Assembly: GCA_028697255.1 (NCBI GenBank) | Contig: JAQVFM010000006.1 | Coordinates: 1 to 53,371, forward strand | DNA: 53,371 nt | Reading direction: 5' to 3' | From: Oscillospiraceae bacterium | GTDB taxonomy: Bacteria > Bacillota > Clostridia > Oscillospirales > Acutalibacteraceae | Shown here: piece by piece, positions 5,178 to 8,542 of the stretch | Position numbering within the stretch: position 1 is the first letter of the stretch | How the letters are laid out: every line of letters starts with the position of its first letter | Made by a program: the position numbers and the translations under genes | Notes under the pieces: model-generated | Seen by the model: only the letters and a program-made list of their open reading frames with translations | Database searches by the model: none | What the model was told of the DNA's origin: nothing

Positions 5178-5546
5178 TTATGTAGTCCGGTTGTTTGTCT
5201 CGCCGCCAAGACCAAAGCTTACTTGCAGTGCTTGATTAATGCGATTCATTGATCCTTCATCCAGACGTCCCATGTGTTCTTTTAAACGACGTTTATCTAT
5301 TGTACGGATTTGTTCAAGTAAAACGACAGAGTCGCGGGCAAGCCCGCAGCCTGTTGAGTTGAGCTGAATATGTGTTGGCAGTCTCGCCTTATCCCTTTGG
5401 CTTGTGATGGCTGCTGCTATTACCGTGGGACTGTGTCGATTACCGACATCGTTTTGAACAATAAGCACTGGACGCACACCACCCTGTTCCGAACCAATAA
5501 CAGGGCTCAAATCTGCATAATAAATGTCTCCTCTTCGGACAGTCAC
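5178..5546 (-). CDS. ndoA: MazF/PemK-family endoribonuclease toxin (EndoA-like)
   Basis: MTVRRGDIYYADLSPVIGSEQGGVRPVLIVQNDVGNRHSPTVIAAAITSQ...RDSVVLLEQIRTIDKRRL. Confidence 0.92.
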   Translation of the reverse strand: MTVRRGDIYYADLSPVIGSEQGGVRPVLIVQNDVGNRHSPTVIAAAITSQRDKARLPTHIQLNSTGCGLARDSVVLLEQIRTIDKRRLKEHMGRLDEGSMNRINQALQVSFGLGGETNNRTT

Positions 5547-5762
5547 ATATTTTCACTCCTGCTTTAAACTCTCGGTGTTTAACCGGTAAATATATTTTTA
5601 CCAAGATTATTTCTGTTTAAACGCTATATTAAAAAAAATTTTTAAAAAACAGTATGGGTACAAGCATTGCTTGTATTATATATTATGTAAGCGGCATAAT
5701 TTTGCTATTAAGATGAAAAGTAGTCTACCAAAGTTATCCTTTAAATTCACACTTCCCTATGA

Positions 5763-5768
5763 TATAAT
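5763..5768 (+). promoter_or_regulatory. Extended -10 promoter (TGaTATAAT) for the DUF1538-type gene
   Basis: TG-A-TATAAT at 5760-5768, followed by SD AAAGGAGA at 5788-5795. Confidence 0.55.
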
Positions 5769-5802
5769 ATTTCTCATAATTAAATCTAAAGGAGAGAGCA
5801 AT

Positions 5803-7305
5803 CTGAATATACTTTTTGGCAAATTTAAGGAAGTGCTCTATTCTGTGCTTCCAATCACAACTATCGTAATATTATTAAATTTTACGATATCACCGCTTGA
5901 AACAAATGTATTTATCAGCTTTTTAATAGGTGCATTGCTAATAATACTCGGTCTCACTGTCTTATTATCGGGTATTGATATAGGGATTACGCCGTTTGGT
6001 AATTTGATAGGTTCAGCACTTACAAAATACAATAAATTGTGGATAGTAATTATATCGGGTTTAATTTTAGGGTTTTTTATATCAATTGCTGAGCCCGATT
6101 TGCATGTCCTTGCGGGTCAAGTTGACATCGTCACGAAAGGCGCAATTCCAAAGCTTACTATGGTCGCAGTAGTATCGGTTGGCATAGCTGCAATGATGAC
6201 TTTGGGCATTGTTCGAATATTGTATAACATAAAAATAACAATAATGTTGTTAATAGTGTATTTGTTTATTTTTGTGATTTCGCTGTTTACGACTTCGGAT
6301 TTTTTGGCAATTGCCTTTGATGCATCGGGTGCAACCACCGGCGCTATGACCACGCCTTTTATTTTGGCGATGTCGATTGGCATATCAGCTTTAAAAAAGG
6401 ATAGTAAGTCTTCTGAAGATGACAGCTTTGGTCTTGTAGGAATTACATCTTCGGGTGCGATAATAGCAGTTATCTTAATGAGCTTATTTTTCCGAAACGG
6501 CGGAATGTCCGGCGGTGAAGCTGTTGCTAAGATTGCCGAATCGGATTCGATTTTCTTGTCGTTCCTTGACATGCTGCCCACCATCTCCGGCGAAGTGGCG
6601 CTCGCTTTGCTGCCGCTTATAGTGATATTTGTAATATTTCAGATAATATCCTTTAAGCTAAAGACAAAATCATTTTTTAAAATTGTTAAAGGATTTTTAT
6701 ATACATTCTTGGGAATGGTGCTGTTTTTGGTAGGAGTAAACGCCGGCTTTATGAATGTCGCCAGTACTGTAGGACATGATTTAGCATCTATGGACAACAA
6801 AGCATATGTTATTATTGTCGGGTTTGTTTTGGGACTGGTCACAATTCTTGCTGAGCCTGCCGTTTATGTGCTGAATGAACAGGTTGAAAATGTTACAAGC
6901 GGTTCTGTTAAAAGAAAAGTCATTTTGATCGCGTTGTCAGCGGGCGTTGGTGTTGCAGTCGCTCTGTCTGTGCTGCGCGTATTGGTTCCCGGAATAAAGC
7001 TGTGGCATTATCTTTTGCCGGGATATATTTTGGCGCTTATTTTATCGTTTTTCACACCCGATTTATTTGTTGGTATCGCTTTCGATTCCGGAGGGGTGGC
7101 GTCCGGTCCCATGACTGCGACATTTATTCTGGCGTTTATACAAGGCGCGGCACAATCGATTGAAAGCGCGAATGTGCTGATTGACGGCTTTGGCATGATT
7201 GCAATGGTTGCACTTGCACCGTTGATTACGTTACAGATATTAGGCTTAATCTACAAAGCCAAGACGGCTAAGGAGGGAGTTAATGACAATGCACTCAACT
7301 CATAA
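5803..7305 (+). CDS. DUF1538-type polytopic membrane protein, two repeats (probable CTG start)
   Basis: Two homologous halves: AEPDLHVLAGQVDIVTKGAIPK / AEPAVYVLNEQVENVTSGSVKR and FLAIAFDASGATTGAMTTPFILA / LFVGIAFDSGGVASGPMTATFILA. ORF track start (5671) lies upstream of the likely promoter. Confidence 0.82.
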   Translation: MNILFGKFKEVLYSVLPITTIVILLNFTISPLETNVFISFLIGALLIILGLTVLLSGIDIGITPFGNLIGSALTKYNKLWIVIISGLILGFFISIAEPDLHVLAGQVDIVTKGAIPKLTMVAVVSVGIAAMMTLGIVRILYNIKITIMLLIVYLFIFVISLFTTSDFLAIAFDASGATTGAMTTPFILAMSIGISALKKDSKSSEDDSFGLVGITSSGAIIAVILMSLFFRNGGMSGGEAVAKIAESDSIFLSFLDMLPTISGEVALALLPLIVIFVIFQIISFKLKTKSFFKIVKGFLYTFLGMVLFLVGVNAGFMNVASTVGHDLASMDNKAYVIIVGFVLGLVTILAEPAVYVLNEQVENVTSGSVKRKVILIALSAGVGVAVALSVLRVLVPGIKLWHYLLPGYILALILSFFTPDLFVGIAFDSGGVASGPMTATFILAFIQGAAQSIESANVLIDGFGMIAMVALAPLITLQILGLIYKAKTAKEGVNDNALNS

Positions 7306-7972
7306 CATCGAGCTTATCTGCATTATTGTAAATATGGGAACAGGCAGCAAGGTTTTAAAGATTGCAAGACAAAACGGCATCAATTCGGGCACGGTTTTTT
7401 TGGGTACCGGAACCGTTAAAAACAGGCTGCTTGAGCTGTTGGATTTATATGAAACGAGAAAAGAAATCGTTATTATGATTGCACAAAAACCGGTTGTTAA
7501 TACCGCTTTTGATACAATCTGCAGTGAGCTGCGTTTAGACAAACCAAATCACGGCATAGCTTTTACTATGCCCGTTGATTTGTTGATAGGAAACAGCAGC
7601 TGTAAAAATGCTTCTATAGGAAACAGCAGCTGTAAAAATGCTTCTACGGATAAAGGAGAATCAGACAGCATGTATAAATCAATATTTGTAATTGTTGACA
7701 AAGGCAAGGGGGAGTCTGTTATTGAATCTGCATCAAAGGCGGGTTCTAAAGGCGGCACTATAATCAATGCAAGAGGTTCGGGAGCACACGAAACCTCAAA
7801 GCTGTTCAGCATGGATATCGAGCCTGAAAAGGAAGTCGTGTTAATATTGGCGCAGGATAATGTCACAGAAAATATTGTCGAAAGTATAAGAGCAGATTTG
7901 GAAATTGACAAACCGGGACATGGTATTATTTTTGTTCAGGATGTAATTAACACCTACGGTATATTAAAATAA
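7283..7972 (+). CDS. PII-like (nitrogen regulatory protein P-II family-like) protein with two tandem domains
   Basis: Two similar halves: HNIELICIIVNMGTGSKVLKIARQNG...LDKPNHGIAFTMPV and YKSIFVIVDKGKGESVIESASKAG...IDKPGHGIIFVQDV; overlaps the upstream CDS by 23 bp. Confidence 0.75.
   Translation: MTMHSTHNIELICIIVNMGTGSKVLKIARQNGINSGTVFLGTGTVKNRLLELLDLYETRKEIVIMIAQKPVVNTAFDTICSELRLDKPNHGIAFTMPVDLLIGNSSCKNASIGNSSCKNASTDKGESDSMYKSIFVIVDKGKGESVIESASKAGSKGGTIINARGSGAHETSKLFSMDIEPEKEVVLILAQDNVTENIVESIRADLEIDKPGHGIIFVQDVINTYGILK
7586..7645 (+). repeat. Perfect 2x30-bp tandem duplication inside the PII-like gene
   Basis: ataggaaacagcagctgtaaaaatgcttct at 7586-7615 and 7616-7645; encodes IGNSSCKNAS twice. 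Confidence 0.98.
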
Positions 7973-8014: not shown

Positions 8015-8542
8015 GTGGATACACAGGATGAATTACGGTCTGTGACGTGCTGTTTTACCGGTCACAGACCGGACAGGCTTGCGGGCGGTTATAATCAAAG
8101 CAACAACATCTGCACCCGTCTGAGGGCAGCTTTAAGGGCGGAGATCGAAAACGCCGTCTTGCAAGGATACACTCGCTTTATTTCGGGTATGGCGCAGGGT
8201 GCTGATATGTGGGCGGCTGAAGAAGTGATAAGGCTGCGCGATAAAGGGTATAATTTGAATCTTGTCGCCGCGTTGCCCTGTCCAAACCAAGATTCGCGAT
8301 GGCCCGAATACGCACGCATTAAATATCGGCAACTGCTTGAACGTGCCGATGAGGTGCATTTGATAAGTGAGAGGTATACGCCGCTTTGTATGGGTGCTCG
8401 AAACCTGTGGCTTGTAACACAATCTTCGATGGTGATTGCATTATATGATGGTGGTAAAAGGGGCGGCACTGCAAATACACTTGCGCATGCGCGACGTTTT
8501 GGGCTGCACATTGTTCGCATAAATCCAGCGGATTTCAGGTAA
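8015..8542 (+). CDS. SLOG-fold DUF1273/YpsA-like protein
   Basis: CCFTGHRPDRLAGG..., FISGMAQGADMWAAEEVIRL, LPCPNQDSRWPE; GTG start with GGAG upstream. Confidence 0.85.
   Translation: MDTQDELRSVTCCFTGHRPDRLAGGYNQSNNICTRLRAALRAEIENAVLQGYTRFISGMAQGADMWAAEEVIRLRDKGYNLNLVAALPCPNQDSRWPEYARIKYRQLLERADEVHLISERYTPLCMGARNLWLVTQSSMVIALYDGGKRGGTANTLAHARRFGLHIVRINPADFR

Follow-up and report, generated by a model that had tools for sequence, protein, structure and literature searches.

Within the window, by which we mean the whole analysed stretch of 53,371 nucleotides, a gene for a DUF1538 membrane protein overlaps a gene for a PII-like protein. The locus raises the question of whether the two genes form one system, what the membrane protein moves and what the PII-like protein contributes. 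In the reading that we favour, and that we regard as probable by a modest measure, they constitute one operon for an antiporter from the UmpAB family, exchanging monovalent cations for protons, together with a dedicated PII-like sensor that gates it.

Gene arrangement and the DUF1538 membrane protein

Gene 1 (5803..7305, forward strand, as are all further features unless stated otherwise) encodes a fused UmpA-UmpB-like DUF1538 membrane protein of 500 residues (Pfam PF07556, E = 2.3e-136; AF2). Its CTG start codon was assigned because the homologues begin at the same residue. A Shine-Dalgarno-like sequence, AGGAGAG (5790..5796), lies 6 nt upstream of this codon and is preceded by a promoter-like site with an extended -10 element (TTTAAA-17-TATAAT, 5740..5768); the latter comes from a consensus scan alone, which returned 13 such sites against 8.6 expected. 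Gene 2 (7283..7972) encodes a PII-like protein of 229 residues with a double domain (Pfam P-II, E = 8.1e-14; AF2; Foldseek). The 23-nt overlap of both genes (7283..7305), already described in a first-pass annotation of the sequence, is of a kind common among relatives: the gap between the DUF1538 and PII genes has a median of -8 nt and measures at most 60 nt in 132 of 135 junctions, and in plasmid homologues the PII gene begins within the 3' end of the DUF1538 gene. Chance is excluded as an explanation for the gene overlap and the duplicated halves. Profile searches of the assembly that contains the window (1.59 Mb, 88.5% complete) found no second DUF1538 gene and no further PII match.

Neither a Na+ nor a c-di-AMP riboswitch was found upstream of the window module or at the 50 relatives searched. 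Riboswitches were therefore dropped as a clue to the effector, and their absence is counted against the favoured reading. A MazF/PemK-type toxin gene lies just 5' of the module on the opposite strand (5178-5546). Directly 3' follows a YspA SLOG-family gene (8015-8542), which is not found beside the module in annotated plasmid relatives.

The product of gene 1 matches the Pfam DUF1538 model in two stretches with 452 bits (gathering cut-off 22.6) and thus belongs to this family. As the first-pass annotation had noted, its halves are homologous (30% identity over 223 residues; BLASTP E = 6.5e-27, profile E = 8.6e-39), and each contains the motifs AEP..QV..VT.G and IAFD..G...G.MT..FILA. The N-terminal half is UmpA-like (5854..6486, PF07556 E = 9.7e-66), the C-terminal half is UmpB-like (6619..7251, E = 5.6e-73), and seven transmembrane (TM) helices are predicted for either. 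The numbers of Lys and Arg residues alternate from loop to loop, and the alternation in one half runs counter to that in the other, whether the proteins are fused or split. Because these loop charges mirror each other, a 7+7 inverted repeat is predicted, with the N-terminus of the UmpA part inside and its C-terminus outside, and the reverse for the UmpB part. The pseudo-symmetry proposed earlier for this protein is thereby borne out at the level of prediction. The helices of the AF2 model (pLDDT 89.7, pTM 0.89) agree with two homologous 7-TM components.

Four acidic residues are located at or near helix breaks in this model. Glu97 (codon 6091..6093, AEPD motif) is invariant in 42 fused proteins; Asp173, in a broken helix (6319..6321, AFD..G motif), Glu351 (6853..6855, AEPA), which is equivalent to Glu97, and Asp428 (7084..7086, AFDSGG), the equivalent of Asp173, are likewise invariant in fused proteins.

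UmpA and UmpB of Halomonas zhaodongensis, a split DUF1538 pair, together act as a Na+(Li+,K+)/H+ antiporter (PMC5484666). The window protein is a member of the same Pfam family, its N- and C-terminal halves follow the order UmpA-UmpB, and seven TM helices are predicted per half. It differs in that both subunits are joined in one polypeptide, in its low UmpA/UmpB scores and in the attached PII-like gene. Since split DUF1538 pairs are known as the UmpAB antiporter, we consider an antiporter likelier than a channel, in favour of the first part of the "transporter or channel" of the first-pass annotation. Against the NCBIfam equivalog models NF041627 and NF041628 the window protein reaches 158 of 490 and 133 of 500 bits, respectively, far below the cut-offs; we therefore treat it as a divergent UmpA/UmpB relative with a putative substrate, which could differ from that of UmpAB. 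The homologue from Paraclostridium is 62% identical.

A rather unlikely alternative keeps the pairing of PII and transporter and gives the window's DUF1538 branch a substrate besides Na+, Li+ or K+ for exchange against protons. The low equivalog scores are in line with it, as is the fact that a single family member has been assayed so far (PMC5484666). DUF1538 is also without a solved structural relative: a comparison of the model with the PDB gave no significant fold match (best E = 0.02, top TM <0.2), and none was found by sequence. Against another substrate speak the Glu (AEP) and Asp (FD..G) residues, which do not vary in either half or among the compared UmpA/B-like proteins, and the gene order UmpA-UmpB-PII, which is retained in the loci nearest to the UmpA model.

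The PII-like protein

The product of gene 2 belongs to the PII superfamily, with 52 bits against Pfam PF00543 (cut-off 25) in two stretches. Its halves share 33% identity over 88 residues (E = 6.6e-16) and end in LDKPNHGIAF and IDKPGHGIIF, as had been read from the sequence before. In the AF2 model (pLDDT 83, pTM 0.79) they form two ferredoxin-like domains, and the top solved matches in a Foldseek search are GlnK/GlnB. The fold thus agrees with the PII type, a point on which the first-pass annotation had made its proposal depend.

The two domains are unequal. The first (7307..7588; strands and helices of residues 9-102 in the AF2 model) is degenerate and, judged by the group consensus, lacks the GGT and EPEKE motifs, which are gone from this domain throughout the fused clade; it is still matched by the profile of the single Ump-PII proteins (hhalign E = 1.4e-20). 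The second (7673..7957; AF2, group consensus) retains the motifs GGT, ARGSG.HE, EPEKE and PGHGI. The linker between them was modelled with low confidence and contains a perfect 30-nt tandem duplication (7586..7645, IGNSSCKNAS twice). This repeat is not found in the aligned relatives; it either arose recently or is an artefact of the assembly.

In an alignment, the subfamily is characterized by the motifs AGA.GGT..GRG.GIHE, IEPEKE and PG.GIAF. Its T-loop is 11 residues shorter than that of GlnB. In GlnB, Tyr51 is the uridylylation site, and Lys90 as well as Arg101/Arg103 contact phosphate groups. None of these canonical GlnB/GlnK residues was found in the aligned subfamily: a hydrophobic residue takes the place of the B-loop Lys, and the C-terminal Arg pair is not conserved. 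The window protein scores 17 of 202 bits against the GlnB/GlnK-type model of NCBIfam. The missing phosphate contacts are counted against the favoured reading.

Linkage across genomes and history of the duplications

We searched GTDB contigs for a DUF1538 motif, taking no account of PII, and the 80 loci obtained belong to Bacillota, Pseudomonadota, Thermodesulfobacteriota, Spirochaetota, Balneolota and several archaea. A PII-like domain follows directly 3' of DUF1538 in 77 of them. One of the three misses is a contig end; the other two, Sutcliffiella and Metabacillus, are real and have UmpAB with no PII of the subfamily nearby. The reverse selection gave the same picture, as all of 20 Bacillota loci picked by PII alone have this gene behind DUF1538. 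In Pseudomonadota, 20 of 20 loci picked by UmpA alone read UmpA-UmpB-PII, and among 299 genomes the subfamily PII is present in 112 of the 115 with UmpA. Within the phylum of the window, 399 genomes divide into 137 with both genes, 2 with DUF1538 only (one at a contig edge, one with a decayed gene), 15 with PII only (nearly all weak matches) and 245 with neither. Because the genomes are related, Fisher values overstate their independence; the pattern of linkage nevertheless recurs in separate phyla. A distinct PII-like subfamily is thus a near-obligate companion of the DUF1538 family, and the conserved linkage that the first-pass annotation had called for is present. The decayed DUF1538 gene (L178, L179; genome G252) has six in-frame stops, and its genome is also without PII, as if the pair had been lost jointly.

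Of 72,556 plasmid records, nine carry DUF1538, and these same nine carry PII. The module is found on plasmids of Paraclostridium, Peptoclostridium, Methylocystis and Chelativorans (L033, L034, L036, L037, L039). The closest kin of the window gene are among the plasmid copies, which suggests that the module spread by horizontal transfer.

This linkage bears on the possibility that the protein is an ordinary nitrogen regulator with a fortuitous transporter neighbour. The NCBI product name of the relatives, "P-II family nitrogen regulator", points that way. We regard it as highly improbable, given the linkage in both directions across phyla and the absence of the full GlnB T-loop and of key GlnB residues. 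Moreover, genomes such as those of Bradyrhizobium and Methanomethylovorans have additional, separate PII proteins with higher scores. Canonical nitrogen regulation was rejected on account of linkage and residues.

The classified loci differ in how both partners are built. The window type, a fused membrane protein with a fused double PII, is represented by 68 loci, and 8 combine the fused membrane protein with two PII genes. Split UmpA/UmpB occurs with a double PII in 20 loci, with two PII genes in 8 and with a single PII in 24 modules (23 loci and one tandem). The tandem is locus L165, a pair of complete UmpA-UmpB-PII modules. On the transporter tree, membrane fusion requires one change, the number of PII domains four and the state of the PII genes eleven. 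The first PII domains cluster together with a support of 93, whether they come from split or from fused systems, in a tree built from few columns and with many weak forks. Because they group together, the PII duplication appears older than the membrane fusion; probably a single duplication of PII was followed by several rounds of gene fusion or splitting.

The first-pass annotation had noted the duplication of both partners and suggested a pseudo-symmetric transporter or channel gated by a fused PII pair. In its strict form this makes the double duplication a functional principle, with a channel in which each half is matched by one PII domain. Fused membrane proteins indeed have two PII domains every time, and a single domain was seen in none of some 77 intact modules. 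Since the membrane fusion happened only once, however, this association is without independent replicates, and the 24 modules of split UmpA/UmpB with a single PII do not conform to it. The PII duplication, in addition, seems to predate the membrane fusion and to be an event of its own. We removed matched duplication as a working principle and give it almost no credence. For the same reason, the single fusion event, we do not claim co-fusion as an adaptation in which a fused transporter needs a fused PII.

Proposed mechanism and relation to known systems

For the favoured antiporter-sensor operon we propose the following mechanism. The membrane protein would correspond to UmpA and UmpB joined, with two 7-TM halves in opposite orientation, and the invariant Glu (AEP) and Asp (FD..G) residues in the broken helices would probably form the cation/proton site. 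The PII-like protein, possibly as a trimer, would dock on the cytoplasmic face of the antiporter and open or close it depending on a small-molecule effector, in the manner of GlnK-AmtB and SbtB-SbtA. Ligand binding would most likely fall to the second PII domain with its kept loop motifs; the first domain, without these motifs, probably serves in docking or trimer building. The effector may be of the adenine-nucleotide type, which is the weakest step of this proposal. As a broader generalization, DUF1538/UmpAB antiporters as a class would be controlled by this unnamed PII-like subfamily, and the fused clade would be gated by an asymmetric two-domain PII with one sensing and one docking domain; we judge this as likely to be right as wrong.

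UmpAB functions in E. coli KNabc without added PII (PMC5484666). This activity is counted against the favoured mechanism, as are Sutcliffiella and Metabacillus with no PII nearby. The same two observations also weaken the idea, which we consider unlikely, that the PII-like protein belongs permanently to the antiporter as a structural subunit instead of acting as a reversible, effector-driven sensor. The near-obligate linkage, the translational overlap and the loss of the canonical ATP-contact residues would fit such a subunit. The loop motifs GRG.GIHE, EPEKE and PG.GIAF, however, are strongly conserved in the subfamily, as expected for a ligand pocket, and we continue to favour a gating sensor.

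PII proteins are the textbook example of how transport is coupled to metabolic state, and AmtB, the partner of GlnK, is an ammonium channel. As in GlnK-AmtB, a PII-type gene stands beside a transporter gene, and the window protein has the PII fold; it differs by the absence of about 11 T-loop residues, of the uridylylated Tyr and of Lys90/Arg101/Arg103. SbtB is a PII-like protein paired with the Na+-dependent transporter SbtA. The pairing as such is shared, whereas the neighbour in the window is DUF1538 with no SbtA, and the subfamily reaches SbtB chains only marginally (E = 0.1-0.26), so that we do not assign it to SbtB. In Firmicutes, c-di-AMP has ties to cation homeostasis. The c-di-AMP PII-like proteins DarA/PstA share the PII-like fold, yet they belong to another Pfam family, with no match in the window PII or in 63 members of two alignments. 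Their B loop is long and their T loop short (PMC6516651).

The first-pass annotation had named the module as its best candidate for an undescribed system. This does not hold for the transporter, as split DUF1538 pairs are the known UmpAB antiporter (PMC5484666); it may hold for the link to PII, which we found in no paper of the open-access library searched. The UmpAB paper makes no mention of PII, and this only functional study found for the family assayed the transporter without a PII gene (PMC5484666). Our results suggest a widespread, apparently unreported mode of ion-transport control. PII-controlled transporters are already known; here a new PII subfamily is combined with a different transporter class. 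To our knowledge, few transporter targets of PII have been described so far. If the proposal is true, monovalent cation/proton exchange would be a further major PII-transporter branch beside ammonium (GlnK-AmtB) and bicarbonate (SbtB-SbtA). A near-obligate PII partner would place pH or salt homeostasis in bacteria and archaea under the direct influence of a metabolite signal, and proteins labelled "nitrogen regulator" in many genomes would gain a function.

PII-like genes were also seen away from DUF1538. In a genome without DUF1538 (G560; L180, 4158-6092), a subfamily PII lies 5' of a CitMHS/ArsB-type permease with MamN as best NCBIfam match. This single case is a possible partner swap and fits a role in ion transport. 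Several Pseudomonadota genomes contain extra PII-like paralogues that do not adjoin DUF1538 (L184, L185, L191-L194, L196, L199, L202, L205, L207), repeatedly near genes that by eye were named argB-like, SH3-domain and FAD-oxidoreductase-like.
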